Positions 7,576 to 57,296 of a DNA stretch of 64,000 bases are shown here, piece by piece. A model generated the notes under the pieces. The model saw only the letters and a list, made by a program, of their open reading frames with translations. It was not told where the DNA came from and ran no database searches. This DNA is from Paracidobacterium acidisoli. GTDB lineage: Bacteria > Acidobacteriota > Terriglobia > Terriglobales > Acidobacteriaceae. The position numbers and the translations under genes are program-made. Every line of letters starts with the position of its first letter. Positions within the stretch are counted from its first letter, which is position 1. Location: positions 124,001 through 188,000 of the forward strand of contig NZ_QVQT02000001.1 of NCBI RefSeq assembly GCF_003428625.2, given 5' to 3'.

Positions 7576-8028
7576 CTCTTATCCACTGAATCCGGATTTG
7601 TACCCGAGCGTAACGGCTTCACGCCCGACGGGTCAATTTCATCCGCTGACGCTGTGGCGGCGCGTTCAGACTCGACTCCGGCTGACCGCCACTTCAGGGG
7701 TGGCCGTCGCCAGCTTCGAACAGATTGCGGGAAAGATCTTCGATGGAGCGATCTCTTTTCTGGCTCTGATATTGCAGATGCGCCGCCGACACATTTCACA
7801 GCCGGCGCACCTGCTCTCCGTAGCCTTATTCACAGATTTCTGGTCTGAAACCATGAGGCCCGGAACCCCAAAACCTGTATTCATCTGATAGACTTAATCC
7901 TGTAATTGCGACGGAAGATTTGGCGCTCATCGCCCGATCTGAGTCGACAACGGCACTTCCAAAGAGTCGGGCAGAAACAGCAAAGTGCCTGTATCTGCAC
8001 GACAGAAATCCGGAATGTTGAAGTTTCC
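7576..8028. other. Intergenic region left of the ICE, no convincing gene
   Basis: About 450 bp between lacI and the tRNA fragment. Short open frames on both strands look like shadows. The one clear structure is a 48-bp segment at 7862-7909 that is repeated at the far end of the ICE (57015-57061). Confidence 0.5.
7862..7909 (+). repeat. Flank repeat, left copy
   Basis: Shares most positions with 57015-57061; the core ATTCATCTGRTAGACTTAAT is followed by CYTGTARTTGC in both. Both copies lie about 120-160 bp upstream of a tRNA 5' half. It could be an old integrase arm-site region left by an earlier insertion, or the natural tRNA upstream region captured by the element. Confidence 0.6.
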
Positions 8029-8062
<34 letters not shown>

Positions 8063-34547: not shown

Positions 34548-34776
34548 TGTGTGTACCTTTCCTCTTCGATTGTAAGAACATCCCAGCGCTCTTGACAACA
34601 GAACACTGGCATTCTTGTGTCCTTCGGACGTGACGCCCGAAATCACAATTGCACACGTGGTTCCAAGGGAGAAGCTACGCTCCTCACCTGTCGCGCGTGC
34701 CATGAAGAGGGGGCACTCAACAAATGAAATGCGGTCATACTGCTTGATCTTGAGTGTCATCTTCATCGCACGACCT

Positions 34777-35916: not shown

Positions 35917-36140
35917 GTGGAAGGTACGAAAGGGATGAGGGCTTTGTTCCACGTAATGGTTGATGTGAGGACGACTTGACGCCAGATCCGACTCGCCTAG
36001 AGGCAATCCTTACGGCGGCTAAGGTCTATCACCTCGCACGGCCAAAACAGGATTTCCGCGATGCAGTGCTCGAGAAAGGCGTGCGGCATCCTCTGCGTTC
36101 GGCGGCTTCACACTGATTGGAAACCATCATGGCAGACTGC

Positions 36141-41340: not shown

Positions 41341-42480
41341 CTAAGGATGTGTCAGCAATGCAATCGCCCTTTGGTAAGCCGAGCCTTTGGCCTCATCTTC
41401 TACGCGGGAGGAAACGGCGAAGTCCGGTGTGAGTCCACTCCCTTTGTTGAAACGAACCGATTTTGCGCTCTCCGCGCTCGCTGCTGGAATCACAATGCCC
41501 GCGTTCTCGTTCAAAGCGACATAGGTTTGAATTTGTCCTCGCCCATAGGTTTTTGCCCCGATGAGGCGAGCGCCGGTCGTATCGTGCAGGCCAGCGGCGA
41601 GTATCTCGGCAGCGCTGGCCGTGCCCTCGTTGATGAGAACGACGAGTTGCATGGCTTTGAACGGCGTGTCTGACGCATGTATCGGCTCTTTCGTACCATC
41701 GCGTCTCACCTTCCATCCGAGCGTGTGATTCGTGAAGGCGCTTCCAGCCACCGCCATCGCGTCCAGATAGCCCCCAGGATTGTTGCGCAAATCAACGATG
41801 CACTTTTCGATTCCATGGGCCTCCAGAGCATTGACGGCCTGACGTACCTGTTTTCCTGAATCCGATGTAAAGAGCAGCACACCGATATATCCCAACGGTT
41901 GCTTGTCTGCTACAAAGGTGCGCGACTCGACGGCTTTTTCGGTCCAAGTCTGTTTCGCTACTTGCACGCTAATCTCTCTCTTATCGCGCCGAATCGTTAG
42001 ATCGACCTTGCCGGAATTTCCCCGAAGCATCGCCATCACGTCCTCATGGATCAATCCGCGTGTGGCTCTTCCGTTGATGCTTACAATCACATCTCCTGGC
42101 CGTAATCCGGCCTTGAACGCTGGGGAGGTCACGAGAGGGGTGACAATCTTAGCTTCGCCGGTCGCCGGATCAATGGTGACTGCGAAATCCACTAATCCGA
42201 TTCCGCGTTCGCTGCCCGCAGTCTCCGCTTGCATTGCGTTCATTTGTTCTGATGTGACGATGCGGAGGTCTCCATCACCGAGTCTCGCTAATTGTTGATC
42301 CATCGAAGAAACCGTGGGATTGGGATCACGCACAAGATCGGCGCGAAGGCGCTGCCAGGAAGCGGTATCGGCAAAGAGATAATTCTGGTCGATAGCATCG
42401 ACAACCTTTGTCGATAGGTTGGCCGTTCCGGTCGAAGGAGGCTGCATCAAGGCCGATGCCAAAACCAAATTGATCCACAT
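41341..42480 (-). CDS. S41 family C-terminal-processing protease with PDZ
   Basis: 379 aa from ATG 42480 (AGGAACGTGT upstream; the frame is open to 42585 inside the permease gene). A short signal-like N terminus, a PDZ domain at about 90-175 ('PAFKAGLRPGDVIVSINGRA') and an S41 catalytic domain with 'GTASAAEIL' (Ser289) and 'GAKTYGRGQ' (Lys310) forming the Ser-Lys dyad. Last gene of the minus-strand ADOP operon, 20 bp after the third permease. It may trim exported or membrane substrates of the system. Confidence 0.9.
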   Translation of the reverse strand: MWINLVLASALMQPPSTGTANLSTKVVDAIDQNYLFADTASWQRLRADLVRDPNPTVSSMDQQLARLGDGDLRIVTSEQMNAMQAETAGSERGIGLVDFAVTIDPATGEAKIVTPLVTSPAFKAGLRPGDVIVSINGRATRGLIHEDVMAMLRGNSGKVDLTIRRDKREISVQVAKQTWTEKAVESRTFVADKQPLGYIGVLLFTSDSGKQVRQAVNALEAHGIEKCIVDLRNNPGGYLDAMAVAGSAFTNHTLGWKVRRDGTKEPIHASDTPFKAMQLVVLINEGTASAAEILAAGLHDTTGARLIGAKTYGRGQIQTYVALNENAGIVIPAASAESAKSVRFNKGSGLTPDFAVSSRVEDEAKGSAYQRAIALLTHP

Positions 42481-42500
42481 ACACGTTCCTTTCAGCGGCA

Positions 42501-45185
42501 CTACTCTGTGCGTAGCGAACGCACTGGATTGATGGAAGCTGCTCGTCGCGCCGGAAGGAAGCTGGCTACCAAGGCGACGAGACAAACGACAGCGGCGACT
42601 CCGACATAGGTTGCTGGATTGGTGGACGTGACTCCGTAAAGAAGGGTCTTCATGAATCGAACGGCGATTAAGCCGAGTACCGTCCCGAGAACTACGCCCG
42701 CGAGGGTCAACGTGATGCCTTGCTTGAGTACCAGCGCGAGGACGCTCTGACGGTCAGCTCCCAATGCCATGCGAATCCCGATTTCCCGATACCTTTGCGC
42801 TACAGACTGAGCCATGACGCCGTAGATACCGATAGCAGCAAGCAGCAACGTCAGCCCTGCGAACACGGTTAGGAGCCGCGCGCGGATTCGCGGTTGTGTC
42901 TGGAGTCCCGCGACCATCTCTCCAAGAGATTTGACCGCGCCTACCGGCAAATTGGGATCTTGGCTCCAGATCGTTTTCTGTATGGCGGCATCCCCGAGTG
43001 CTACGCCCGGTTGTGTGCGTACAACAAAGAACATGGTGGTGTAGTCGGAATTCGCAAAATACTGGTGAATCTGTTGCTGTTGGTAGTCCGTGTAAACCTC
43101 CGGGCGGGACTCCCACGCAATCTGGTTGTAACGAGTGGACTTTGTGCTGGCCACGATGCCAACCACTTCGAGCCACGGGTTTTTCTGCGTTTCGGGGTCT
43201 TTCGGGTCTCCGATGCGGATGTGCTCGCCAATCGGGTTCTTGCCCGCGAAATATCGCTGCACGGCTTCTTCGTTGATAACGGCGACCGGGCGCGTCGCCT
43301 GCACGTCGGAGTCCGCAAAATCCCGGCCTGCGACCGTCGCAATTCCCATCGCTTGGAAATATCCCGGTCCTACGGTGATTGGAGTTGCTTGTGGCAGATG
43401 CTCTGCCGTGAGATCGGCGCGGCTCTCGATTTGAAATGGGTCGGTTCCGGCGTCCGACAGGCGAAGGAAGTAGCTCATCCCCACAGAATCCACGCCGGGC
43501 AGGGCTCTAAGGCGCTCGGATAAGCGATCCGCAAATTGGGTGAGCTGCGTGTCTGAACTGTACCGCTTGTGCGGCAAGGCAAGGTTGATGACGTGGGTAT
43601 CGGCGGGATTGAACCCAAGAGGCTGAGAATTTAGCCGAAGGAAGGTCGTCAGCAACAATGAAGCGCCGATCAAGAGGATTACGGAGAGGGCAATCTGCGT
43701 CAGCACAATGATGTTCCGCGAGCGCAATTTTCCGGTGGCGGCAGATGCTCCAGAGCTGCTCGACCGTAACGCCTGATTGACATTGAGCCGTGACGCCCGA
43801 AACGCCGGGTAGGCTCCGAAGATCAGGCCGGACGCCACTGTGAGGAGCGCGGCTACAGCCAGAACCGGCAGGCTGACGGTGATTGGCTGCGCTGGAAGCG
43901 ATCCAAACGGATTCCAGGCGACAAAGCCCCGCACCGAAGCAAAGGCGATCAATAGTCCCAGAGCGCCGCTGATTCCGTAGAGGACCAGGTTTTCCACGAG
44001 TAACTGGATGAGAAGACGACGGGCGCTCGATCCAAGAGCCGCACGAATGGCGAACTCTTTTTCTCGTTGTATATTTCTGCCAACGATGAGACTGGCGGTG
44101 TTGGTGCAAGCGATCAGAAGTAGCAATCCCACAGCTCCGCCAAGGACGAGAAGTGATGCTCGAACTTCGCGGGTATTGTCTTGTTGCAGGCTTGAGAGAT
44201 AGGCAGTCGATTTCGGAATGTCTGGATAGTGCCGATCATTTTCGGCCTGTAGCAGAGCGATTTCCGGTTTGGCCTGCGCGATAGTGACACCTTGATTGAG
44301 CCGTCCGATGATGGCAACGGCGGTCACCGAATCCTGTTTGTACTGTGGGTCTCCCGCTTGGATCAACGTCCACACATCAATATCATGCGGCTGGTCGAGA
44401 ACGCGGTAGGAGAAGCCGGGCGGGAGGATGCCGACGACTTTGAATGGCTTCTCATTGAGCGTCAACGACTCGCCCAACACGGACATGGACTGATGGAATC
44501 GTTGCGTCCACAGAGCGTAGCTAATCACCGCGACAGGCGGACCAGTATTGTCATCGTCCAGAAAGAGCCGCCCCCGAAAGGCCGTAACTCCAAGCGTGTT
44601 GAAGAGACTATTGCTGGCGATTCCTCCATGCAGGCTCGCGGGTTCACCGCTTCCGGTCAATGTATATCCTCGCTCGAACGAAGCGCCTAAAGACTGGAAG
44701 GAATGGCTGCGTTCACGGAAGTACAGGTAGTCGCGCCAACTGAAGTAGTACGCCGGTTCATTTGGGACATCCGCCGCTGCACGCCAGAAAATGACGAGCT
44801 GTTGCGGGTTCTTCAGCGGCAGCGGTTGAATGATCCAGGCATTCAGGATCGAGAAGATACCGGTTGTCGCTCCGATGCCGAGGGAAAGCGTCAAGATGGC
44901 AACGGCAGCGAATCCTCGATTTCGCAGAAGTTGACGAAGTGCATAGCGGACGTCCGCGAAGAAGCTCTCCAAGGTCAGAGCAGCATCTTCGGCAACAATC
45001 TTCTCCTGCATTACTGCCGGGTTGCCAAACCGTAGAAGTGCATCGCGGCGAGCCTGTTCAAGAGTCATCCCCGCCGAGATATTTTCCTCTGTGCGCATGT
45101 CGAGGTGGGAGCGCAATTCGTCCTGTATCTCCCGCTCCAGGTTCCCGCGAGAGAAGAGATTCGAGATACGGCGAAAGATCGACAT
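42501..45185 (-). CDS. ADOP-type MacB-like ABC permease (1)
   Basis: 894 aa. N-terminal 60-residue module 'RGNLEREIQDELRSHLDMRT' and 'ARRDALLRFGNPAVM', first TM, MacB-like periplasmic domain, then FtsX core with three TMs, a second periplasmic domain and a second FtsX core ('VFAGLTLLLAAIGIYGVMAQ', 'IGIRMALGADRQSVLALVLK'). This duplicated architecture defines the acidobacterial orphan permeases. It lacks its own ATPase domain and probably shares the ATPase at 53380-54105. Confidence 0.92.
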   Translation of the reverse strand: MSIFRRISNLFSRGNLEREIQDELRSHLDMRTEENISAGMTLEQARRDALLRFGNPAVMQEKIVAEDAALTLESFFADVRYALRQLLRNRGFAAVAILTLSLGIGATTGIFSILNAWIIQPLPLKNPQQLVIFWRAAADVPNEPAYYFSWRDYLYFRERSHSFQSLGASFERGYTLTGSGEPASLHGGIASNSLFNTLGVTAFRGRLFLDDDNTGPPVAVISYALWTQRFHQSMSVLGESLTLNEKPFKVVGILPPGFSYRVLDQPHDIDVWTLIQAGDPQYKQDSVTAVAIIGRLNQGVTIAQAKPEIALLQAENDRHYPDIPKSTAYLSSLQQDNTREVRASLLVLGGAVGLLLLIACTNTASLIVGRNIQREKEFAIRAALGSSARRLLIQLLVENLVLYGISGALGLLIAFASVRGFVAWNPFGSLPAQPITVSLPVLAVAALLTVASGLIFGAYPAFRASRLNVNQALRSSSSGASAATGKLRSRNIIVLTQIALSVILLIGASLLLTTFLRLNSQPLGFNPADTHVINLALPHKRYSSDTQLTQFADRLSERLRALPGVDSVGMSYFLRLSDAGTDPFQIESRADLTAEHLPQATPITVGPGYFQAMGIATVAGRDFADSDVQATRPVAVINEEAVQRYFAGKNPIGEHIRIGDPKDPETQKNPWLEVVGIVASTKSTRYNQIAWESRPEVYTDYQQQQIHQYFANSDYTTMFFVVRTQPGVALGDAAIQKTIWSQDPNLPVGAVKSLGEMVAGLQTQPRIRARLLTVFAGLTLLLAAIGIYGVMAQSVAQRYREIGIRMALGADRQSVLALVLKQGITLTLAGVVLGTVLGLIAVRFMKTLLYGVTSTNPATYVGVAAVVCLVALVASFLPARRAASINPVRSLRTE

Positions 45186-45207
45186 TGGTTACCTCACATG
45201 GGTAGCG

Positions 45208-47844
45208 TTACTCAGATCGCAGAGCTTCAGTGGGATTTATCGTGGATGCTTGGGCAGCAGGCACGACAGCAGCCAACATCCCGACAATCAATAAAGTCAC
45301 GACCGAAGCACCGATCGATAGAGGATCGACATTGCTAACGTGGTACAGCAGCGTGCTTAGAAAATGTGCGCACACGAGAGCACCGGCGAGTCCGGCGAGA
45401 ATTCCGATGGCCGTCAAGGTCGTTACCTCGCGCAACACGAGCAGCACAATATTTGTCCGATTCGCTCCTACGGCCATCCGTACTCCGATTTCCCGTGTCC
45501 GCTGTTCGACCGAATACGCGATCACTCCATAAATACCGATAGAGGCGAGCGTCAAAGCGAGCAGCGCAAAGATGCCCAATAACACAGCGGTCACCTTTTG
45601 CCTTGCCAAGGAGTCGGAGAGTACCTCGTCGATAGTCTGGACGTGGTAGATGGGCTGATTCGGATCGAGCTGACGAACGGCATTGCGAACGTCGCCCGCA
45701 ATGCTGTCTGGATCGATATTGGTGCGAAGGAGGATCACGGCGTGAGTCCCGAAGCCCGGAAGATACAGTTCGGGCTCTGCATCTGTTTCCACACCCAAAT
45801 CTCGTGCATTCGAGACGACGCCAATCACCGGAACCTTATCAGGGTGAGGACTGAGAACGCCGAGCAGGATGCTTGATGTCAACGGGTCTCTGCCAGAAAG
45901 GTAGCGTTCATCAAACGCTTGGTTGACCACGAACAAGCTGGCATTGTTCTCAATGTCTTTCTGCTCAAACGTCCTGCCCTGTACAAGGCCAAGTCCCATC
46001 GTGCGGAAGAAATCAGGGCTGACAAAACGGATTTGCGCGAATGGGAATGCCCCAGGAGCTAAGGGTGCTGCGCCCGCTATGAGAAAGCGGGTCATGGAAT
46101 GAGAAGCGTTGAGGGGCACGGCATTCGTAGTTCCAACCGAGGTGATGCCGGGCGACCTTTGCAGCTTATCAATAAGCGCCTCATAAAAATGATTGGTCGC
46201 CGTCGTCTGGTCCTGATAACGCGGCTGGGGTAAGGTGATTTCAAGGCTGAGCAGATGGTCGGTGCGGAAACCGGGATCGATTTGAATGAGCTTCTGGAAG
46301 CTGCGAACCAACAGCGACCCTAAGAACAGCACGACAATGGCGATTGCTACCTCCGCCGACACCAAAGCGCCTCTTCTCCAACTCTGTGTGCCGCTGCTGC
46401 CACGGTCGCCGGAGCGCAATGCCTCGGACAATCTCCGGGGCGAATGAAACATCGGCAGCAATCCGAAAAAGATCGCAGTGAAGAGGCAAACACTGAGCGC
46501 TACGAGTAAAACCGGCAGATCGAGACGGATTGATTGGACCAACGATGGGTCTGCGCCTGTGACATGGGCGAAGGCGGTTCGCAGCAGTGGGAGAATCAAC
46601 TCGGCAAACATTGTCCCGAGAAGACCTCCAAACAAGCAAAGAAGAAGGGTTTCAGCAAGGTATTGTGTGAGCAGCCGGAGACGGCTTGCTCCGAGCGCCT
46701 GCCTAACGGCGGTCTCTCTCCGATGCGCGGAAGCCCTGACTAAAAGGAGATTCGCCACGTTGACACAGGCGATGAGCAGAACCAGCACGACGCATCCCAT
46801 CAGGCTCAATAGCGCCGGGCGCAGCGAGCCTACGAGCTGCTCTCGCAGTGGAGTGAGAAGTACGCCGACATTTCGGTTCGTCGCCGGATAGCTCTGTGAC
46901 AACCGTGCTGAGATGGTTGCCATATCGGCACGGGCCTGTCCTAAGTCAACTCCGGGTTTCAGACGGCCTAGAACATTGACCGTGTGCCAAACCCGAGATG
47001 CCTGCGATTCCTTATCCATCAGAGAAAGAGGCATCCAGAAATCGCCTGTCGCCGGGTAGGCACTTCCAGCGGGGAGCACTCCAACGATGATGTAGCTCAC
47101 GTCATTCAGATCGACTGTGCGGCCAATGATGCTTTTGTCCGCGCCGAAATAGCGTTGCCAGGCTTCAGCGCTGATAACGGCAACATGGTTCGCTCTCGGT
47201 GTATCGTCCTGCTCCACAAAGGTCCGTCCCAGAGATGGGGTGATGCCAAGAAGCGAAAAGAAATTACTGGATGCGAGAACCCTATGGACCTGTTCGGCGT
47301 GCCCGTCCCAAACCAGCGACACGGTTTCAGGACTGACTATGGAGTATCCGGCCATCTGCTCAAAGCTGGACTGCTGCGAGCGCCAATCCGTGTAATCCGG
47401 AAAGGTAACCTCTCCCCCACCCGCGACCTGTGGATGTGTCTCGTTGATTGTGACGATGCGATCTGCCTGCCGGAAGGGCAGCGATCTGAGCAGCAGCGCA
47501 TATGCACAGCTAAATATGGCAGTCGTTGCGCCGATGCCAAGGGCGAGTGTCAGAACCGCAGTGATGGAGAATCCGGGCGCTTTTGCCAATCGGCGAAAAG
47601 CGTACCGTAAATCCATCCAGAAAGACTCCAATGTGAGCGCGGCATCCGAAGCCGCCACTCGTTCCTTGGTCAGCGTGGGGTTTCCGAAACGGAGCAATGC
47701 GTCCCGGCGCGCCTGATCCGGCGGCATCCCCGACGCGAGGTTATCCGACATCCGCATCTCAATATGCGATTGCAGTTCATCGTCGATTTCCTGCGCAAGT
47801 CTTGCGCGACGGAAAAGATTCGAGACGCGGTTTAACAACGACAT
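45208..47844 (-). CDS. ADOP-type MacB-like ABC permease (2)
   Basis: 878 aa, same architecture as its neighbours: N-terminal 'ARLAQEIDDELQSHIEMR', two periplasmic MacB domains, two FtsX cores ('RETAVRQALGASRLRLLTQY' and 'IGVRMAVGANRTNIVLLVLR'). It is 22 bp from the previous permease gene. The N-terminal modules of the three ADOPs are alike while the periplasmic regions differ, suggesting paralogues that assemble together or serve different substrates. Confidence 0.92.
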   Translation of the reverse strand: MSLLNRVSNLFRRARLAQEIDDELQSHIEMRMSDNLASGMPPDQARRDALLRFGNPTLTKERVAASDAALTLESFWMDLRYAFRRLAKAPGFSITAVLTLALGIGATTAIFSCAYALLLRSLPFRQADRIVTINETHPQVAGGGEVTFPDYTDWRSQQSSFEQMAGYSIVSPETVSLVWDGHAEQVHRVLASSNFFSLLGITPSLGRTFVEQDDTPRANHVAVISAEAWQRYFGADKSIIGRTVDLNDVSYIIVGVLPAGSAYPATGDFWMPLSLMDKESQASRVWHTVNVLGRLKPGVDLGQARADMATISARLSQSYPATNRNVGVLLTPLREQLVGSLRPALLSLMGCVVLVLLIACVNVANLLLVRASAHRRETAVRQALGASRLRLLTQYLAETLLLCLFGGLLGTMFAELILPLLRTAFAHVTGADPSLVQSIRLDLPVLLVALSVCLFTAIFFGLLPMFHSPRRLSEALRSGDRGSSGTQSWRRGALVSAEVAIAIVVLFLGSLLVRSFQKLIQIDPGFRTDHLLSLEITLPQPRYQDQTTATNHFYEALIDKLQRSPGITSVGTTNAVPLNASHSMTRFLIAGAAPLAPGAFPFAQIRFVSPDFFRTMGLGLVQGRTFEQKDIENNASLFVVNQAFDERYLSGRDPLTSSILLGVLSPHPDKVPVIGVVSNARDLGVETDAEPELYLPGFGTHAVILLRTNIDPDSIAGDVRNAVRQLDPNQPIYHVQTIDEVLSDSLARQKVTAVLLGIFALLALTLASIGIYGVIAYSVEQRTREIGVRMAVGANRTNIVLLVLREVTTLTAIGILAGLAGALVCAHFLSTLLYHVSNVDPLSIGASVVTLLIVGMLAAVVPAAQASTINPTEALRSE

Positions 47845-47855
47845 TCAATGGCCTC

Positions 47856-50555
47856 TCATTCACTTCGCAACGCACGCATTGGATCGACCGAGGCCGCCCG
47901 AAGTGCAGGTAGCCAGGAAGCAAGAGCTACGACCAGACAGAACGCCCCCGTGATCCCAACATACGTAAGCGGATCGACGACCTTTGTGTCTACTAGAAGG
48001 CTGCGAATCCATCGAGACAGGCATAGTGCTACGACGCAGCCGATGAGAATACCAGCCGCACCAAGCCTTAAACCTTGCCCCACGATTAGGCTGAACACCT
48101 TGGCCTTTGTAGCCCCAAGAGCCATCCGCACGCCGATTTCCGAGGTGCGCTGGCGAACCGAGGTCGAAAGAACACCGTAGACACCTAGCGCAGCAAGCAG
48201 CAAGGCCACAACGGAGAACGCGCCAATCAAGAGGAAAGCTAAGCGAGTCGTGGCTTGTGCCTGTGCTACCAAGTCGTCCATAGGCTCAACCTCAGTCAGA
48301 ACCGCTTGGCCATTCCATTGAGTGATATGACTACGAACGATTGGCCCGTATGCGGATGGGTCGCCGGATGTTCGAATCGCCCATCGCGTGGCGAAACCGT
48401 GTCCCATGAAGCCGTCTGTCAAATAGATTTGTTCCCGGCCAGTCTCGGTCAAGGATGTATCCCGCTGATGCGCCACAACTCCTATGACCTCGACCCACTC
48501 CGGTTCGGGTGTGCGCAAACGGATCAGGATGCGTTTCCCAATGGCAGATTCATGGGGGAAGGCTTTCGCAGCGAGAAGCTGATCGATGATGACGAGATTG
48601 CGTTCAGGCGCGCTATCTGCCTCTGTAAAGCTACGACCTGCAAGCAGAGGTGTTTTGAGCGTTTCAAAGTATCCCGGCAAGACCACCTGATAGTTAGCGG
48701 ACTGGAACTTGCTTGAATCGCCGAGTGCCTGTTCTGTCCCCCAGCGGATGGGAAAGAACTGATCCGCCAGCGGGAAAGGTGACGCGGCAGTTACGCCCGT
48801 CACACCGGAAATGCTTGTCAGGGAATCATGAATCTCGCGCGTGACAGCGCTGCGTTGCTCAGGGCTGGATGCTTGAGGAGCAATGATTTGGAAAGTCAAA
48901 AGATTCCGAGCATCGAATCCAGGATCGACATTCTGTAGCTTCAGGAAACTACGAAGCATTAGCCCGGCTCCGACCAGTAGTGCAAAGGATAGAGCGATCT
49001 CCGCAACCACAACTCCGTTGCGCAAAAGGCGTCCACCAGCAAGCAACGAGTTCTGACCGCCCGACCGCAGAACAGTCATCAAAGCTGGGCGTGACACATG
49101 CAGTGCAGGACCAACTCCGAAGAGGGCCGCTGCTCCAATGCCGAAGAGCGCGGCAAATGTAATGACGGTCGCATCTAAATGCACCGATGCCAGGAGAGGT
49201 TGATTGGGCAGCGCGAAGTTCGCTAGTTCGTGAACGGCTGTCCAAGCGATCCCTAAACCAAAGAGCGTACCGGCCCCGGCAAGCAGCATCGCCTCTGCTA
49301 GCACTTGGCGAATCAGATCCCACCGTCCGCCTCCCAAAGCATTGCGAACTGCAAGCTCGCGCTCCCTGAGTGACATCCGTACTAACAGAAGATTTGCCAC
49401 ATTGGCGCAGGCAATGAGCAGCAGGAACGCGGCAGCCCCCATCAAGGCGATAACGGAAGGCGTCAACTCTGCCACTAGATACTGATGCATCGGGTGCAAC
49501 TGGATGTGGCAATCCGATGTTTGCCAAAGAGAAAAATCTCTTCTTAGCTGGGAGGCAACGCCGTCCACTTCCGATTGCGCATTGGCTACGCTAACGCTGT
49601 CTTTCAATCTCCCAATGACGCGGTATATCAAAGTCTTCCTATCCGCGTTGTTGTAGGTCAGGCGCGTGGCAATCCAGACGTCCGGCAGGCGCTCGACATC
49701 CGCCTTCGGTGGAAACAGCAGCTCAAACCCAGGCGCAAGAACGCCAACAATTTCGGAGCCGTTATTAGCATCGCTCGACAAGCGCTGCCCGATTACAGCG
49801 GGATTGCCTCCGTAGCGCCGCTGCCAATACTCATAGCTCAGAATGGCCGGTGGTGCGGCGTTCTGCCCGGCTTGTGTTGGCGTTGCTGCGTCGAGCGTTC
49901 CACCTTGCGAGGGTGCATCCGCCTGGTTGAAATCGCGTCCCAGCAGCACCTTTCCGCCTAGTACGCTGAAAAAGTTCGTCGTGATCGACGCGGTACGAAC
50001 TTGCTCCATCGTGCCGTCCCGATGCGCTAAGAGCATCTTGCCCGTCCTCACACCGGCGAATCCGTCAAACATTCGCTTGGCCCCATTCTCAAGATCAACG
50101 AAATCAGGGCTAGAGAAAGGAAGATCGGAGGTATTTCGATTACGCATTTCCCCGGTTGCAACAACGAGCCTGTCCGGCTGTCGATAAGGGAGCGGGCGTA
50201 ACAAGACCGAATGGACGACGCTAAATACCGCAACGGTCGCGCCGATGCCAAGAGCGATGGTTCCGATGACCGTTAGAGCGAAGGTGGGATTTTTCTGGAA
50301 CTGTCGAAGCGCATATCGAAGATCACGTAAGAACATCTCAACCCCCAATCCAGCATCGACGGCCACAATCCTTTCTCTGATGGCCGTGGGATTACCGAAT
50401 CGCAGCAGCGCATCTCGCCTTGCAACTTCGGGAGACATTCCGGCTGCGATGTTGTCGTCTGTCCGCATTTCAATGTGCGACCGAAGCTCATCTCTGATCT
50501 CTCGGTCCAACTGCAAACGCGAAGCTAAATTGACCATGCGACGGAGAAAAGACAT
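47856..50555 (-). CDS. ADOP-type MacB-like ABC permease (3)
   Basis: 899 aa, first permease of the operon. Begins 'MSFLRRMVNLASRLQLDREI' with 'RDELRSHIEMRTDDNIAAGM', then two MacB/FtsX repeats ('RELAVRNALGGGRWDLIRQV', 'IGVRMALGATKAKVFSLIVG'). Ten bases after the PadR gene stop, so co-transcribed with it. Apparently intact. Confidence 0.92.
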   Translation of the reverse strand: MSFLRRMVNLASRLQLDREIRDELRSHIEMRTDDNIAAGMSPEVARRDALLRFGNPTAIRERIVAVDAGLGVEMFLRDLRYALRQFQKNPTFALTVIGTIALGIGATVAVFSVVHSVLLRPLPYRQPDRLVVATGEMRNRNTSDLPFSSPDFVDLENGAKRMFDGFAGVRTGKMLLAHRDGTMEQVRTASITTNFFSVLGGKVLLGRDFNQADAPSQGGTLDAATPTQAGQNAAPPAILSYEYWQRRYGGNPAVIGQRLSSDANNGSEIVGVLAPGFELLFPPKADVERLPDVWIATRLTYNNADRKTLIYRVIGRLKDSVSVANAQSEVDGVASQLRRDFSLWQTSDCHIQLHPMHQYLVAELTPSVIALMGAAAFLLLIACANVANLLLVRMSLRERELAVRNALGGGRWDLIRQVLAEAMLLAGAGTLFGLGIAWTAVHELANFALPNQPLLASVHLDATVITFAALFGIGAAALFGVGPALHVSRPALMTVLRSGGQNSLLAGGRLLRNGVVVAEIALSFALLVGAGLMLRSFLKLQNVDPGFDARNLLTFQIIAPQASSPEQRSAVTREIHDSLTSISGVTGVTAASPFPLADQFFPIRWGTEQALGDSSKFQSANYQVVLPGYFETLKTPLLAGRSFTEADSAPERNLVIIDQLLAAKAFPHESAIGKRILIRLRTPEPEWVEVIGVVAHQRDTSLTETGREQIYLTDGFMGHGFATRWAIRTSGDPSAYGPIVRSHITQWNGQAVLTEVEPMDDLVAQAQATTRLAFLLIGAFSVVALLLAALGVYGVLSTSVRQRTSEIGVRMALGATKAKVFSLIVGQGLRLGAAGILIGCVVALCLSRWIRSLLVDTKVVDPLTYVGITGAFCLVVALASWLPALRAASVDPMRALRSE

Positions 50556-50564
50556 TGACCACCT

Positions 50565-50891
50565 TCATGCATAACGCAGCATGGCACGTACACCCTTCAC
50601 AAGCTGTTCGAAGTTCTTCTCGACTTCCTGTAAGTGCTTGCGTCCGGCAGCGGTGAGCTTGTAATACTTCGCCCGCCTATTTGTTTCCGTGAGTGCCCAT
50701 GACGCGCTGATCCAGCCGTTTTGTTCCATGCGATGCAGGGCTGGATACAAGGAGCCTTCCTCGACCCGCAACAATTCATCGGAAGCAGTCTGAATGTGCA
50801 GCACAATTCCGTAGCCGTGCAGCTCCCCGGTCTGGGCAAGTGTCTTGAGGACAAGAAGATCCACAGTACCTTGAAGGTCGGTCTTAGCCAT
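50565..50891 (-). CDS. PadR-family transcriptional regulator
   Basis: 108 aa from ATG 50891 (the frame extends to 50990 but that part covers the promoter). Winged HTH: 'DLQGTVDLLVLKTLAQTGEL', 'HGYGIVLHIQTASDELLRVE', 'EGSLYPALHRMEQNGWISAS', 'RRAKYYKLTAAGRKHLQE'. PadR proteins of this small type commonly precede ADOP genes in Acidobacteria and act as ligand-sensing repressors. First gene of the minus operon; it likely controls both divergent operons. Confidence 0.93.
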   Translation of the reverse strand: MAKTDLQGTVDLLVLKTLAQTGELHGYGIVLHIQTASDELLRVEEGSLYPALHRMEQNGWISASWALTETNRRAKYYKLTAAGRKHLQEVEKNFEQLVKGVRAMLRYA

Positions 50892-50914
50892 TCGCGCAAA
50901 CCTCGTTGGAGCAG

Positions 50915-50944
50915 ATGCTATCCATAGAGCGCTAGGGGTGTCAA
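50915..50944 (-). promoter_or_regulatory. Promoter of the PadR-ADOP operon
   Basis: On the minus strand TTGACA at 50944-50939, 18-bp spacer, TAGCAT at 50920-50915 (4 of 6). A CTAG-containing element (CTAGGGGTG on the plus strand at 50932-50940) sits inside it. Confidence 0.55.
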
Positions 50945-50983
50945 ATGAGCATGGTATTCGCGCTCTTTCGTCGCCTGGATGCC

Positions 50984-51012
50984 TTGACATCTAGGTGTGC
51001 AACGGCTTATAG
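50984..51012 (+). promoter_or_regulatory. Promoter of the TPR-MFP-ABC-TolC operon
   Basis: TTGACA at 50984-50989, exactly 17 bp, then TTATAG at 51007-51012. The best consensus promoter in the window, 65 bp ahead of ATG 51077, divergent from the PadR promoter. Confidence 0.75.
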
Positions 51013-51025
51013 CTCTTAATCGTAG

Positions 51026-51041
51026 CCCTAGCCGTCTAGGG
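51026..51041. promoter_or_regulatory. CTAG palindrome, candidate PadR operator
   Basis: CCCTAG-CCGT-CTAGGG lies just downstream of the -10 box, where a repressor would block transcription. Related CTAGG(G/T)GT elements occur at 50932 and 50991 in the same divergent region, and CCTAGACCCTAG occurs at 54142-54153 before the tolC gene. Confidence 0.5.
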
Positions 51042-51076
51042 GTAGGCTTGGGTATCGGCCATAGCGGAGGATCATC

Positions 51077-52054
51077 ATGACAAACCGATTTGCACGACTA
51101 GGCGTTATCTTTCTAGGCTTCGCATTCTTGACTTGCCAATCGCAAGCGACCGTCCGAGATGACCTGAATCATGCCATCGCCCTGCGCAATCAAGGTGCTT
51201 TCAAGGAAGCCGTCACGGTACTCAAACGGATCGTAAATACTCCATCCGCTTCCATGTCTCCGGCTGAGACGGAGGAAGCGTTGAGTGCGCTCGGATCAGC
51301 ATATCTGGGTGCTGGCAATTATTCCGAAGCCAGGAAGTGCAGTGAAAAAGCCCTCCGGCTTGTCAAAGCTACCAACCCGGAAAATCTGAAAGAGGAAGCT
51401 GCTGTTCTCGATCAACTTGGATTGGTCTACATGAAACTTGACGACAGCAGTCGTGAATCCAAGGCGCGCGATCAGGCTCTCAATCTGTACGAACAGTTGG
51501 GAGATCACGAAGGCATCTTCGAAGAGAGAAATAGCCAGGCCAATTTGGCGATCAAAACAATGAAGCTTCGGCAGGCTCATGAGCTGATGGACAAAGCATT
51601 CGAGCAAATGCCTTTCGCTAGCAAATTCGCCACAGGCGACATGGCCACTTTTTACAGCAACGTCGGTTGGCTGGCCTACACGGAAAGCAAATCAGACGCG
51701 GCCTTTGAGGCATACAAGAAGGCATTGCAGTCGTGGACTAGTGCATATGGCCCACATGACTACAAAGTCGGTGAGACCTATATCCAGATCGGGAAGGTCT
51801 ATCTGCAACGCAACGACGTTGTTGATGCCGACTCGAATATCCGCAGAGGAATGGGGATTCTGAAGCAAGCTCTCGGTGATAACGACCCAATAACACTCTC
51901 CGCACTGGTGCCCTATTCCCGATTGCTCGATATGGAAGGGCAACATGACCAAGCCGCTCAAATGCAGGCAACAGTCGAACAGTCACTTCACGGTAAGTTT
52001 GGGATCGGTTCCTGTACACGCTGTGGATCGTACGAACCGTATCCGCGTCTCTAG
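51077..52054 (+). CDS. Exported tetratricopeptide-repeat protein
   Basis: 325 aa. Signal peptide 'LGVIFLGFAFLTCQSQA' then about six TPR units ('EEALSALGSAYLGAGNYSEA', 'AAVLDQLGLVYMKLDDSSRE', 'VGETYIQIGKVYLQRNDVVD'). First gene of the divergent operon, so a periplasmic scaffold or sensor for the export system is plausible. The C-terminal tail ends 'CTRCGSYEPYP', with a CxxC. Confidence 0.8.
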   Translation: MTNRFARLGVIFLGFAFLTCQSQATVRDDLNHAIALRNQGAFKEAVTVLKRIVNTPSASMSPAETEEALSALGSAYLGAGNYSEARKCSEKALRLVKATNPENLKEEAAVLDQLGLVYMKLDDSSRESKARDQALNLYEQLGDHEGIFEERNSQANLAIKTMKLRQAHELMDKAFEQMPFASKFATGDMATFYSNVGWLAYTESKSDAAFEAYKKALQSWTSAYGPHDYKVGETYIQIGKVYLQRNDVVDADSNIRRGMGILKQALGDNDPITLSALVPYSRLLDMEGQHDQAAQMQATVEQSLHGKFGIGSCTRCGSYEPYPRL

Positions 52055-52108
52055 GCAGCCAACTTCTATATTTCGGATTTCTCGTCCGCGAAAGAGATTT
52101 ACAACGAT

Positions 52109-53368
52109 ATGGATATTCAGCGTCCAGACCTCAAACGAAAGCAACGGAAGAAAGTCCTGCTCATTGGTCTTTCGCTAGTAGTGTTGTTGGCTGCGTCGGT
52201 GTACGGAGTGTCCCGGTTGCGGCCTGCTCTCCCGACCGTCGAGCGAAGCTCTGTCTGGACAGATACGGTGAAGCGTGGCCCGATGGTCCGCCAAGTGCGG
52301 GGCATCGGCACATTAGTACCACGCGAGGACCGGCTTCGGCTGATACCAGCCGAAACGGACGGGACGGTTGTCCGTATCGATATTTTGCCCGGTGCGAAGG
52401 TCGAGCCCGACTCTGTGTTGATGGAATTGACCGACCCGCAGTTGCAGCAGGAGCTTGTTGATGCACAACTGGAGCTGAAGGCGGCTTCCGTTGAGTATCG
52501 CAATCTGCAAGCGAAGCTTCAGAGCGATCTCATGACCGAGCGGTCAGCGCAGGCCACCGTAAATGCGGACAATCAGCAAGCACAGAAACAGGCGCAAACG
52601 GATAAGGCTCTTTACCAGCTAGGAGTCATCAGCGGATTGACGTATGACGCCTCGCAGGGCAAGGCTGATGAATATACAACGCGGACAAGCATCGAAAAAG
52701 AACGTCTGGATGTCAACAAGAACGCCATTGCCACTCAACTTGAAGTGCAACAGACCAAGGTCGAGCAGGCGAAAACGCTGCTGGCTCTGAAACAGAAGCA
52801 GATCGATGCTTTACAGGTGCGCGCCGGGATACACGGTGTCTTGGTAGACCTTCCGCATCAGGTAGGTGAGCATGTGACGCCGGGGACAACGCTCGCTAAG
52901 GTCGTTCAGCCCGATCAACTAAAAGCATCGCTCAAAATTGCTGAGACCCAGGCCCGCGATATTCAAATCGGCCAACCTGCCGAAATCGACACACACAATG
53001 GCCTCATCTCGGGGAACGTTTCACGCATCGACCCTGCCGTCCAAAACGGAACAGTAACCGTGGATGTAGCTCTCACAGGCTCGTTGCCCCAGGGTGCCCG
53101 ACCGGATTTGAGCGTCGATGGGACCATCGACCTGGATCGTTTGCAGAACGCGCTGTATGTGGGCAGGCCAGCCTTCGGAAACGAAGACAGCACAATCAGT
53201 CTCTTCAGGATCGACGGTAAGGGCGACACCGCTACTCGCGTGCCGGTGAAGGTAGGCCGGGCTTCAGTGAACACTATTCAGATCGTGTCCGGCTTGAAGG
53301 AGGGAGATACAGTCATCCTTTCAGATATGTCGCGGTGGGATAAAGCAGATCGGGTACAGCTCCAATAG
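52109..53368 (+). CDS. Membrane fusion protein (HlyD/MacA family)
   Basis: 419 aa. Short cytoplasmic basic start, TM helix 'VLLIGLSLVVLLAASVYGV', lipoyl halves ('IPAETDGTVVRIDILPGAKV' and 'VRAGIHGVLVDLPHQVGEHV') flanking a long coiled coil of about 110 residues, then beta-barrel and membrane-proximal domains. The adaptor between the inner-membrane permeases and the TolC-type channel. Followed closely by the ATPase gene. Confidence 0.92.
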   Translation: MDIQRPDLKRKQRKKVLLIGLSLVVLLAASVYGVSRLRPALPTVERSSVWTDTVKRGPMVRQVRGIGTLVPREDRLRLIPAETDGTVVRIDILPGAKVEPDSVLMELTDPQLQQELVDAQLELKAASVEYRNLQAKLQSDLMTERSAQATVNADNQQAQKQAQTDKALYQLGVISGLTYDASQGKADEYTTRTSIEKERLDVNKNAIATQLEVQQTKVEQAKTLLALKQKQIDALQVRAGIHGVLVDLPHQVGEHVTPGTTLAKVVQPDQLKASLKIAETQARDIQIGQPAEIDTHNGLISGNVSRIDPAVQNGTVTVDVALTGSLPQGARPDLSVDGTIDLDRLQNALYVGRPAFGNEDSTISLFRIDGKGDTATRVPVKVGRASVNTIQIVSGLKEGDTVILSDMSRWDKADRVQLQ

Positions 53369-53379
53369 AGGTGATGCAA

Positions 53380-54105
53380 ATGATGGAAGCGAACGAGCCA
53401 TTGATTCAGATAGACCAACTCACAAAGGTCTTCTACACGGACGAGGTTGAGACGCACGCACTCTCAGGCGTTGCACTCTCTATCAAGCGCGGCGAATACA
53501 TTGCCATGTCCGGCCCGTCAGGTTGTGGGAAGTCTACTCTGCTTTCGATTCTGGGATTGCTGGATACTCCAACCAGCGGACGCTATCAGCTTAATGGACG
53601 AGCTGTAGACAATCTGAGCTTCTCGGAGCGGTCGCGGATACGAAATCAGGAGATTGGCTTCATCTTTCAGAGCTTCAATCTGATTGGGGATCTGACTGTA
53701 GCTGAGAACGTCGAGTTGCCTTTGACATATCGTGCCGGAATGCCCGCAGCCGAACGCAAGCGTCGGGTTCAGGAGTCGTTGGAAAGAGTTGCGATGGCCC
53801 ACCGCATGAAGCACTATCCGTCGCAGCTTTCCGGTGGTCAACAACAGCGTGTAGCTGTGGCGAGGGCACTTGCTGGTTCTCCTTCCATCCTTCTTGCCGA
53901 TGAGCCGACCGGAAACCTTGACTCTAGGAATGGCGAGGCCGTGATGCAGCTCATGGCAGAGCTACATAAGGAAGGAGCAACGATCTGCATGGTGACCCAC
54001 GATCCTCGGTTCGCGGCCCATGCAGACCGTCAAGTACACCTCTTTGACGGACAGGTTGTCTCCGAAGAAGAGCTAAAGCGGAAGCTGACCGAGATTGAGG
54101 CGTAG
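53380..54105 (+). CDS. ABC transporter ATP-binding protein (MacB/LolD type)
   Basis: 241 aa from ATG 53380, 8 bp after AGAGG (in-frame ATG 53374 and GTG 53371 are too close to it). Walker A 'GPSGCGKS', Q-loop 'GFIFQSFNLI', signature 'LSGGQQQRVAVARAL', Walker B 'ILLADEPTGNLD', switch 'VTHDPRF'. This is the only ATPase of the cluster and would energise the orphan permeases encoded divergently. Confidence 0.94.
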   Translation: MMEANEPLIQIDQLTKVFYTDEVETHALSGVALSIKRGEYIAMSGPSGCGKSTLLSILGLLDTPTSGRYQLNGRAVDNLSFSERSRIRNQEIGFIFQSFNLIGDLTVAENVELPLTYRAGMPAAERKRRVQESLERVAMAHRMKHYPSQLSGGQQQRVAVARALAGSPSILLADEPTGNLDSRNGEAVMQLMAELHKEGATICMVTHDPRFAAHADRQVHLFDGQVVSEEELKRKLTEIEA

Positions 54106-54122
54106 GGACGCTTCAATCTCGG
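54089..54122 (+). terminator. Hairpin spanning the ATPase stop codon
   Basis: Fourteen-base arms (54089-54102 and 54109-54122) pair with a single G-U around a 6-nt loop that contains most of the TAG stop. No T tract follows, so it is more likely an attenuator or mRNA-stability element that sets the level of the tolC gene. Confidence 0.5.
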
Positions 54123-54166
54123 TGTGCTTGATACCGACGTGCCTAGACCCTAGCTGGTGAAGATGG

Positions 54167-56047
54167 ATGCTTATGAAGAGACTTTTTACTTCGACTCTCG
54201 TGATTTGTTCAGTGATCGGCTCCTGGCAGCGGACTGTGGCACAGACACCGGCCTTGAACTTGAATCTTCCGAGGTCGAAGAATCCGTTTGGACCTTACAT
54301 CCCGAGTCTCGTTCCCGCAGCGAGTCTCGCAAATTCACCTCGGATCGACCAGCTCATCCGTGATGGGAAGTTGTATCTATCGCTCGATGATGCCATCCGC
54401 CTCGCCCTCGAAAATAATCTCGACATCGCCATCTCTCGCTATAACCTTCCCATCGCTGAAGCCGACATCGAACGGACACGGGCGGGTGGTGCCTTTCGTG
54501 GTGTCAACGCTGGCATCGTTCAGAACACGCCGGGAGGCGGCGTTGGCGGATTGGGGTCTGGCGCTCCTGGCGCTGGCGCAGGAGGAACGACAGGTGGAGC
54601 GGGAGGTGCCGGAAGTGGAGCCTCTGGTATCGTTCAGTCCACATTGGGCGCAGGCACCGCGGTTTCCTCCTACGATCCCACGATCACAGGAACAGCAAGC
54701 ATCGAACATTACACTCAACCGCTATCCAATCTTCAGATATACGGTGTTCCTTCTTTACAGTTGAATACCACTGGCGCGAACCTCACATATAGTCAGGCTT
54801 TCCCAACGGGGACGGCGTTCAGTTTCAACTTTGAGGACACTCGGCAGACTGGCAACAGTATTTACAACTACTTGAATCCAGCGCTCAACGTCTACTACCG
54901 GATCACCTTTCAGCAACAACTCCTGGCGGGGTTCGGCTTAGGGCCGAACCTTCGATATCTGCGGATCGCAAAGAACAATCGCAAGATTTCAGATATCGCC
55001 TTCAAAGACCAGGTGATTGCGACGGTAACGCAGATCGCCAATATGTATTGGGATTTGGCGGACGCTTATCAGGACGTGCAGGTCAAGGAGCGCTCCTTCC
55101 AGTTCGCCAAGGAGACTCTGGACAGGGATCAAAGACAATTGGAACTGCGCGCAATTCCTGCAATGGATGTCACCAAAGCTGGCGCGGAGATGGAGAACAG
55201 GGAGCAAGACCTAACTTCTGCCAAGACAACTTTGGTGCTTCAGGAGTCATTGATAAAGAATGCTTTGACGAAGAACCTTGACGATCTCACACTAGAAGAG
55301 ATTCCCGTCGTGCCAACCGAAAGAATGAATTTAGATACGGACGCGGCGGCAGGTTCGACGCTAGAGAGCCTCACAAACGAGGCTCTGCGTGATCGACCGG
55401 AACTGCAAGAATCAACCATCGACCTAGAGAGCCGAAACATCAGCAGATCTGCGGCGCGCAATGCTTTGCTTCCGACTGTGAGCCTGCAAGGCTACTACGG
55501 AGGCTCCGGCCTTGCCGGAGTTGATAACCCGGCATCCGGCTACGATTCGTCGGTGCCAACTGAGAATTCCGCTGCTATACGCAGAGCCTTCAACAATAGC
55601 TCACCTGATTATCTCGTAGGTCTGTCCGTGCGAATCCCTCTGAGGAATCGCGTCCTGAAATCCGACCAATATCGGTCGGAGCTGGAATATCGCCAGTCGG
55701 AGCTGCTCATTCAGCAGCAAAAGAAACAGATTCGGATCGAAGTCCGCAACGCTCTATATGCCTTGCAACAGAGTCAAGCCCGCGTTGCCTCTGCTCGTAG
55801 GGGATGCGACTTGGCTCAGAAGACCTTCGATATTTCAAAGCAGGAGCAGCAGTTGGGAGCAGGCTCAAACGCCCAGACTCTTCTTGCACAGCGTGATCTC
55901 GCCGTTGCGGAATCATCACTGGCGGAAGCGGAAACGCTCTATGAAAAGAGTCGTATTGAGCTTGAGCGTGCAGTCGGATCGACACTCGAAAACCACGGAA
56001 TTGCAATTGATGATGCAAAACAAGGTGCAGTAGCGAAAACTCGTTGA
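54167..56047 (+). CDS. TolC-family outer-membrane channel protein
   Basis: 626 aa. Signal peptide around 'STLVICSVIGSWQRTVAQ', the N-terminal motif 'LYLSLDDAIRLALENNLDIA', paired OEP repeats and the long helices ending 'EQQLGAGSNAQTLLAQRDLA'. Longer than usual TolC (450-500 aa) because of an inserted Gly/Ala-rich loop of about 45 residues near position 120 and an extracellular-type region near 435-480. Forms the exit duct for the ADOP/MFP system. Confidence 0.9.
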   Translation: MLMKRLFTSTLVICSVIGSWQRTVAQTPALNLNLPRSKNPFGPYIPSLVPAASLANSPRIDQLIRDGKLYLSLDDAIRLALENNLDIAISRYNLPIAEADIERTRAGGAFRGVNAGIVQNTPGGGVGGLGSGAPGAGAGGTTGGAGGAGSGASGIVQSTLGAGTAVSSYDPTITGTASIEHYTQPLSNLQIYGVPSLQLNTTGANLTYSQAFPTGTAFSFNFEDTRQTGNSIYNYLNPALNVYYRITFQQQLLAGFGLGPNLRYLRIAKNNRKISDIAFKDQVIATVTQIANMYWDLADAYQDVQVKERSFQFAKETLDRDQRQLELRAIPAMDVTKAGAEMENREQDLTSAKTTLVLQESLIKNALTKNLDDLTLEEIPVVPTERMNLDTDAAAGSTLESLTNEALRDRPELQESTIDLESRNISRSAARNALLPTVSLQGYYGGSGLAGVDNPASGYDSSVPTENSAAIRRAFNNSSPDYLVGLSVRIPLRNRVLKSDQYRSELEYRQSELLIQQQKKQIRIEVRNALYALQQSQARVASARRGCDLAQKTFDISKQEQQLGAGSNAQTLLAQRDLAVAESSLAEAETLYEKSRIELERAVGSTLENHGIAIDDAKQGAVAKTR

Positions 56048-57104: not shown

Positions 57105-57219
57105 CGAAGCCTAAAAACCGAGTCCACAGCAGCGATAAGGTAGAAGAGAGCGAAAATAGCGAAATCTGCGAAACGCTTGATTCTATGTGACATATAGCCA
57201 AGTTGTTGAAAAACAATCT

Positions 57220-57296
57220 GGGGACGTAGCTCAGTTGGTCAGAGCGCTGCCCTGTCACGGCAGAGGTCGCGGGTTCGAGCCCCGTCGTCCCCGCCA
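57220..57296 (+). tRNA. tRNA-Asp (anticodon GUC), rebuilt at attR
   Basis: Complete cloverleaf: acceptor GGGGACG/CGTCCCC, D arm GCTC/GAGC, anticodon stem CTGCC/GGCAG with loop CTGTCAC (anticodon GTC at 57254-57256), T arm with GTTCGAG, discriminator G and encoded CCA at 57294-57296. Its 5' half is duplicated at 8029-8060. If crossover occurred there, the first half and its promoter are supplied by the ICE and the second half by the host. Confidence 0.97.

Follow-up and report, generated by a model that had tools for sequence, protein, structure and literature searches.

Introduction

The word 'orphan' in the definition of the ADOP permeases refers to the lack of a neighbouring ATPase gene, and these proteins are strongly expanded in many Acidobacteriota. 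The closest described systems are the tripartite exporter MacAB-TolC, the DarBCD transporter, YbbAP of Escherichia coli and, for the sharing of one motor, the multitask ATPases MsmX and MsmK. Here we analyse a stretch of 64,000 nucleotides of the Paracidobacterium acidisoli genome (5.0 Mb, 97% complete), corresponding to positions 124001-188000 of contig 1 and hereafter called the window, in which an integrative and conjugative element (ICE) of 49 kb carries, in one block of nine genes, three ADOPs together with an ABC ATPase, a membrane-fusion (adaptor) protein (MFP) and a TolC-type channel. The larger result is that 'orphan' ADOPs closely track one small cassette encoding such an ATPase, adaptor and channel, and that the element unites both. 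The related genomes suggest that an engine of this type is what such permeases rely on.

A single metagenome-assembled genome has been described with 102 'acidobacterial orphan permeases', 80 of them transcribed, and the available part of that source suggests only a transport role (PMC10564751). Among the titles and abstract openings of the open-licence papers listed, we found none naming an energy source or a partner for ADOPs. Fusions of HAAS to FtsX/MacB domains have been noted before, in the accessible portion of the paper concerned (PMC11237479). In turn, darBCD is stated, in the part of the source at hand, not to be essential for darobactin production in E. coli (PMC9055067).

Organization of the nine-gene block

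Profile scans (Pfam and NCBIfam) of the nine genes, which lie in 41341-56047 in two divergent sets, bear out the gene list, order and strands given in a preliminary description of this DNA. The minus strand holds an S41 (CtpA/D1-type) protease with a PDZ domain (41341..42480; PF03572, 110 bits), whose best solved relative is the photosystem II D1 protease (E 2.4e-34), the ADOPs A (42501..45185, 894 aa), B (45208..47844, 878 aa) and C (47856..50555, 899 aa), and a PadR regulator of the acidobacterial type (50565..50891; TIGR03433, 136.9 bits against a curated cut-off of 101.8, matching from residue 39 of the called open reading frame, ORF). The plus strand encodes a TPR protein (51077..52054; Pfam) that is probably exported, judging its N-terminus by eye, the MFP (52109..53368; TIGR01730, 104.4 bits, cut-off 94.9), an ABC ATPase of 244 aa (53371..54105; profile scans), of the MacB/LolD/DarD kind and here called ATPase1 type, and the TolC-type outer-membrane channel (54167..56047; PF02321, 144.4 bits).

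All three permeases exceed the curated cut-off of TIGR03434 (824.5, 873.5 and 778.4 bits for A, B and C, against 622.3). B and C have the same architecture as A: an internal duplication, with two MacB_PCD and two FtsX stretches, preceded by an N-terminal 'permease prefix domain 1' (NF038403, HAAS-like; 56-62 bits, 56.1 in A, cut-off 30). They are mutually 33-36% identical, and a recent tandem duplication was rejected as the source of the trio. The coding starts of the S41 and PadR genes are likely the ATG at 42480 and position 50891, the called ORFs extending to 42585 and 50990, respectively. Intergenic gaps are small, which fits with two operons: 9 bp (PadR/C), 11 bp (C/B), 22 bp (B/A) and, assuming the S41 start at 42480, 20 bp (A/S41) on the minus strand, and 54 bp (TPR/MFP), 2 bp (MFP/ATPase) and 61 bp (ATPase/TolC) on the plus strand. 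None of the nine genes has an interrupted reading frame, and in alignment the ATPase shows canonical forms of Walker A, signature, Walker B and H-loop.

One mobile element indeed carries every component of an ABC pump that spans the envelope, with one ATPase gene for three ADOPs, as the preliminary description had it. Here an ATPase gene does lie nearby, in the divergent operon, so that 'orphan' would not apply in the sense given above; this concerns the name and not the protein family.

Co-occurrence of ADOPs and the cassette

We searched 247 Acidobacteriota genomes for the MFP (E up to 1e-40) and for ADOPs (E up to 1e-180). The former was found in 91 and the latter in 89 genomes; 86 had both, five the MFP only, three ADOPs only, and 153 neither (phi 0.93; Fisher p 4e-56, a value that ignores descent). 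Completeness of the three genomes with ADOPs only is 82, 87 and 84%. The five MFP-only genomes all belong to one genus, and three of them were rescanned; each of these has two ADOP-like genes that score 583-596 bits, slightly short of the cut-off. Under other thresholds (MFP E < 1e-100, ADOP above its cut-off), 41 relatives were distributed as 22 with both, one with the MFP only, five with ADOPs only and 13 with neither (p 6e-6); the corresponding figures for the host's own family alone, whose named members encountered are Acidobacteriaceae, are 8, 0, 4 and 13 (p 5e-4). The ADOP-only genomes among the 41 are G009 (88% complete), G016 (81%, with an ATPase1 at 80% identity), G038 (54%), and G018 and G021 (99%).

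Genomes with the cassette differ widely in their number of ADOP matches (E up to 1e-130): 25 in G000, 16 in G131, 15 in G074, 12 in G232, 8 in G017, 7 in G023, 3 in G006 and in G008, 2 in G015 and 1 in G026. Within a single genus, G074, G131 and G232 combine the cassette with 15, 16 and 12 ADOPs, and G149, G184 and G253 (99-100% complete) have neither. An rpoB tree was built for 25 genomes of the family (30 were sought; four had no match and one a partial one); it requires eight changes between the states 'both' and 'neither', at least five of these changes being forced by supported branches, and the sister pair G004/G011 (support 100/98) differs in state. On this tree, the cassette and the scattered ADOPs were hence gained or lost jointly several times, and their co-occurrence is not explained by loss of one operon alone.

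Genomic contexts of the cassette

A set of 73 loci with an MFP at least 40% identical was gathered from an MFP search of the 41 related genomes, from a named-genome collection (47 loci) and from the stretches around ADOPs. It contains near-duplicates (L081 and L166 are one contig), and genes were called by blastp against the window proteins with E up to 1e-6. In 34 of the 73, ATPase1 (68-85% identity) comes after the MFP, together with one to four ADOPs, one locus having the ADOP before the ATPase. A chromosomal MFP-ATPase1-ADOP(s) cassette is common in Acidobacteriota, and a complete ADOP pump, which had been put forward as unusual, is not special to the element, since an ADOP stands directly with ATPase1 in these loci. 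In a further 25 loci there is no permease, and ATPase1 is accompanied by TolC and/or a second ATPase (ATPase2, about 41% identity); of the rest, five stop at a contig end, seven have no called ATPase1 and two have ATPase1 only. ATPase2 occurs in 15 of the 34 ADOP-bearing loci, many of the others running off the sequence, and in 20 of the 25 permease-less ones. In the two cassettes scanned further along, a sigma-54 response regulator and a histidine kinase come next. A similar cassette also exists in Gammaproteobacteria (Wenzhouxiangella, Lysobacterales).

The right operon of the element (MFP-ATPase1-TolC) is a shortened cassette in which the permease and ATPase2 are missing; Granulicella mallensis X5P3 (L133) has the same short order. 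An origin by copying from the host's own cassette was considered and rejected: the MFP is 72-75% identical to those of Acidipila/Edaphobacter and 63% to the host's other copy. It groups with the cassettes of Acidipila and Edaphobacter/Granulicella and not with that second copy, at a support of only 87-93. The left operon is of a PadR/prefix-ADOP type that often stands alone elsewhere. By our own hidden Markov model (HMM) of the prefix domain, which was extended stepwise, starting with 3 sequences and ending with 26, and may overlook some ADOPs that have it (L084, with PadR, falls below it), the domain is absent from 54 of 55 cassette ADOPs and present in 25 of 52 non-cassette ones. Because nearly all cassette ADOPs are free of the prefix, the use of ATPase1 by prefix-domain ADOPs is something that we infer.

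At nine of the 73 loci, some of them close relatives (L077, L082, L084, L132, L145, L146, L147, L178 and L179), PadR and/or a prefix-ADOP is encoded no more than 4.5 kb from a cassette MFP and in the divergent orientation. This count includes L147, with PadR and an ADOP fragment, and leaves out L144 (an ADOP fragment of 84 aa) and L167 (an ADOP 23% identical, with no prefix). The preliminary description named independent occurrence of the two operons as what would refute it, and this was observed: the right type is also found by itself, accompanied by permeases of its own, and the left type where no ATPase gene is close by. This independent occurrence speaks against strict dedication of the pair, yet it fits a shared engine.

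Several observations concern the second ATPase and more distant relatives. Most copies of the chromosomal ATPase2 (L006, 9082-9792, and other cassettes) have a D-loop NLH or NLQ for NLD and a signature ending LSGGQQQL, and ATPase2 may be one of two unequal partners in an ATPase pair; an initial reading of it as devoid of an H-loop was dropped after alignment. The TolC frames of L137, L150, L158 and L159 are 819-853 aa long, with some 200-250 N-terminal residues without assignment at the usual place of ATPase2. Plasmid searches returned distant relatives only, phage records and viral contigs lying outside the search. On plasmid pGMOR1 of Gloeobacter morelensis (L210, 3017-12266), an MFP 52% identical to that of the window is in a row with a small ORF, a radical SAM gene, an ATPase, an ADOP-like permease, a sensor and a response regulator. 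A plasmid of Xenorhabdus sp. TH1 (L211, 2970-10247) carries an MFP, an ATPase, an ADOP-like permease, a sigma-54 regulator and an ATP-binding protein, in the gene order of the acidobacterial cassettes. The megaplasmids NZ_CP007129.1 and NZ_CP007130.1 of Gemmatirosa kalamazoonensis have 16 and 13 ADOP-like places.

Scattered ADOPs and permease structure

The host genome has 25 ADOP matches, 22 of which lie outside the window. Around the 21 annotated (flanks up to 3 kb), no cassette-type ATPase, MFP or TolC was found; one locus (L028) has two distant ATPase-like ORFs, at 27-30%. The host's own chromosomal cassette (L006), in turn, has no permease. On a tree of 107 ADOPs, built by a quick method with Shimodaira-Hasegawa-like approximate likelihood ratio (SH-aLRT) support, at least seven scattered host ADOPs group with cassette ADOPs of other species (SH-aLRT 98-100). 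Those of L008, L021 and L030 cluster with cassette permeases from Edaphobacter, Terriglobus and other taxa (100), and those of L023 and L026 together with two of L027 also join cassette ADOPs (98-100). ADOP B has as its nearest neighbour (support 94) a PadR-linked ADOP of G025 (L080) that closely precedes a cassette MFP encoded on the same strand.

Both halves of a profile built from 32 ADOPs align with chains of the MacB family. The predicted model of ADOP B (predicted local distance difference test score, pLDDT, 84.5; predicted template modelling score, pTM, 0.75) has two MacB-like halves. It comprises two periplasmic domains, three helices in the prefix and a pair of short helices, one at 375-383 and one at 783-791; in our own reading of this model, its eight long helices match the places of the MacB membrane helices. 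The top structural matches are YbbP (Z 26.4 and 22.7), BceB, YtrF, MacB and LolE, and LolC/E, MacB and YbbP are matched over both ADOP halves by model and sequence together. The coupling motifs at the short helices (E, R.ALGA) are equally conserved in orphan and cassette ADOPs. Given the MacB-like halves and these motifs, one ADOP could replace the MacB permease dimer, needing a separate ATPase pair as in YbbAP.

The divergent region

With the PadR start at 50891, the divergent spacer measures 185 bp. One inverted repeat (50922..50937) is inside the spacer of a promoter-like site for PadR and the ADOPs (50944-50915, minus strand); another one, perfect (51026..51041), is just downstream of a promoter-like site on the TPR-MFP side (50984-51012), which was read by eye, the promoter scan making no call there. 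Both share CCNTAG-N4-CTANGG, a pattern derived from these sites and found at three places in the 5.0-Mb genome, two of them being these promoters. The window holds five other comparable repeat pairs when all spacings are counted, and a search for a PadR-box pattern gave nothing consistent upstream of 13 PadR genes. On the basis of the shared repeats, PadR likely controls both divergent operons jointly. ADOP B has GNP at residues 54-56, GNP is present in all three ADOPs, and PadR is their neighbour; we take NF038403 to equal HAAS.

The conjugative element and accessory genes

The preliminary description placed the block within an ICE as cargo, and the surroundings agree. The left end is a 5' fragment of tRNA-Asp (8026..8060, plus strand; attL-like) adjoining a tyrosine integrase (8169-9437; profile scan); its 35 bp are identical at 33 positions to 57217..57251 (plus strand; attR-like), where the repeat enters the intact tRNA-Asp at 57220-57296. 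It spans the 5' half of this tRNA. Inside the element lie VirB4-, TrbI/VirB10- and VirB11-type proteins, TrwB, a TrwC relaxase, ArdC and ParB, and a TrbL-like protein scoring just below its cut-off. Integrase, relaxase, coupling protein, type IV secretion system genes and end repeats, by which an ICE is recognised, are all present, and with the integrase, transfer genes and end repeats around it, the block is cargo within a conjugative element. Base composition gave no sign of a foreign origin for the block. A second repeat, of 45 bp and 82% identical, lies upstream at both ends of the element, and it is the element that would supply the intact right-end tRNA-Asp with its 5' half and the sequence preceding it. 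An AAA/SMC-like ATPase (32787-33530) and two ORFs without a Pfam match (34110-36006), situated between transfer genes and cargo, could be a further accessory module.

The preliminary description included S41 and TPR among the parts of one machine and hinted at peptides. No relative of either was found at any of the 109 annotated loci, and the best other TPR relatives, in eight of 199 other family genomes, are 23-29% identical. The host chromosomal cassette has another, unrelated-looking TPR gene 126 bp before its MFP; 55 same-strand ORFs lie up to 600 bp upstream of the 73 MFPs, of which four were put to Pfam and the rest, by eye, were judged mixed. S41 and TPR were hence rejected as conserved parts, and these two of the nine genes are probably passengers. 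That the parts belong together is supported for the permeases, ATPase, adaptor and channel, through the co-occurrence, the ADOPs within cassettes, the nine divergent loci and the paired repeats, and is not supported for S41 and TPR.

Proposed mechanism and alternative explanations

We consider it probable that the block amounts to an export module for ADOPs, both mobile and self-sufficient, in which one engine of ATPase, MFP and TolC drives several ADOPs. Each ADOP would be a fused pair of MacB-like half-permeases without an ATPase of its own, and an ATPase dimer would bind both coupling helices. The adaptor and TolC would transmit force and substrate over the periplasm and outer membrane in the fashion of MacAB-TolC. 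As there is only one ATPase gene, the three ADOPs would alternate on the same ATPase, adaptor and channel, probably with different substrates. PadR and the HAAS-like prefix domains would probably switch both operons via the matching inverted repeats. By analogy with MacB and DarBCD, the substrates may be peptides or other amphiphiles, peptides being one possibility in view of DarD as the best model of the ATPase and of the radical SAM cluster on the Gloeobacter plasmid. Physical assembly, sharing, control by PadR and substrate are what we infer here.

On a broader scale, the chromosomal cassette seems to serve many scattered 'orphan' ADOPs in trans, and ADOPs entering a host free of it would have to come with their own engine on the element. 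Whether one cassette is the common engine of the whole 'orphan' ADOP set of a genome, the element being a portable, self-powered version with a PadR switch, we regard as an even question. The same balance holds for the multiplexed tripartite exporter that forms part of it, with permeases exchanged on a shared motor and channel.

Several facts weigh against these readings. The p-values of the co-occurrence are uncorrected for descent and have no control family beside them. G018 and G021, both 99% complete, look like true exceptions, with one and two ADOPs, no cassette MFP and an ATPase1 of at most 54% identity. The cassette-free G009 (88% complete) has four ADOP matches, two of them partial, against the two or three of the cassette-bearing G015, G006 and G008, so that the counts overlap at the low end. 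The element has no ATPase2, which many cassettes have, and by our HMM only one of 26 prefix-domain ADOPs is within a cassette. ADOPs A and C are unplaced in the tree, and no other ADOP of the set is more than 39% identical to those of the window. As for the repeats, a backward-read control pattern matches eight places in the genome, so that, with three against eight, it is their pairing that is unusual and not their number. The pair was spotted post hoc, and a comparable one occurs in about 1.5% of 185-bp stretches under a looser control on loci of the host's own genome. The same motif pair is in none of the seven other divergent regions, L077 and L132 having pairs with other motifs and five none. 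Moreover, the host's second cassette could also serve the ADOPs of the element.

Some of these facts would suit the capture of two unrelated transport operons, in which the ADOPs work without an ATPase or with a house-keeping one (LolD/YbbA-like) and the adaptor-ATPase-TolC set serves another permease in trans. The scattered host ADOPs stand alone, G018 and G021 have ADOPs without a cassette, and LolD-like ATPases of about 50% identity are present in 40 of the 41 related genomes. However, a phi of 0.93 with joint gain and loss, ADOPs inside the cassette itself, matching repeats at both promoters and conserved coupling helices speak against it, and we hold this explanation to be unlikely.

More improbable still is a dedicated system of peptide processing and export, with S41 and TPR as working parts and S41 maturing the exported peptide. 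Their tight spacing at the operon ends would suit it, as would the DarD model as best NCBIfam match of the ATPase (247.8 bits, below its cut-off of 375), the row of MFP, radical SAM, ATPase and permease on the Gloeobacter plasmid, and the TPR gene before the MFP of the host cassette. Nevertheless, the absence of S41 and TPR relatives at the annotated loci and the weak similarity of the best other TPR proteins argue against it, and a scan of 30 ORFs, which did not extend to small ones, revealed neither a precursor peptide nor a gene for peptide modification. Finally, ATPase2 and a cassette-type permease are missing from the 61-bp gap between ATPase and TolC, as would be expected of a decayed or non-functional remnant that had lost them; against this, the nine open frames, the canonical ATPase motifs and the same short order in G. 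mallensis make decay a very slight prospect.

For a mobile and self-sufficient export module, the implications would be several. The close tracking of one small cassette provides candidates for the missing ATPase, adaptor and channel of ADOPs. If permeases share motor and tunnel, export would be modular in Acidobacteriota; to our knowledge, such modular sharing is known for importers only, with their multitask ATPases. Furthermore, the mobile version provides a compact set of genes for heterologous tests.

Comparison with known systems

The chromosomal cassette of Acidobacteriota, as in Edaphobacter lichenicola and Terriglobus albidus (MFP-ATPase1-ADOP-ATPase2-TolC), for which we found no published name, has parts homologous to those of the block, with MFP at 72%, ATPase at 83-84% and TolC at 63-67% identity, and an ADOP permease. 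It differs in having ATPase2, a prefix-free ADOP and, as seen in two cassettes, a sigma-54 regulator and a histidine kinase, where the element instead has PadR and prefix-domain ADOPs.

DarBCD resembles the block in its permease, adaptor and separate ATPase, DarD being the best NCBIfam model for ATPase1, with weak DarB matches. In contrast, all scores are below the cut-offs (DarB 30.6, 49.8 and 23.2 of 700 bits; DarC 70.3 of 450; DarD as above), and no darobactin-type biosynthesis gene was recognised. With MacAB-TolC the block shares the tripartite layout, a MacB-fold permease, adaptor and TolC being encoded together, and both ADOP halves align with the MacB family; MacB, however, has a fused ATPase, whereas in an ADOP the fusion is of a permease pair, the ATPase (244 aa in the block) being a protein by itself. 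E. coli YbbAP is the top structural match over the whole ADOP body and also combines a long permease with a separate ATPase, but at 13% identity, and the solved entries, by their titles, show YbbAP alone.

The HAAS-PadR dyad, as presented in the available text of its description, likewise has a prefix domain before an FtsX/MacB body and a stand-alone PadR, and the GNP of the three ADOPs fits the GxP described; that text ties the dyad to envelope stress, whereas in the block its role would be the switching of export genes (PMC11237479). In the multitask ATPases MsmX and MsmK, one ATPase serves several permeases, as would that of the block; these are importers in the part of the source consulted (PMC7658222), whereas the block would be an exporter with adaptor and channel, its three permeases presumably sharing one motor.

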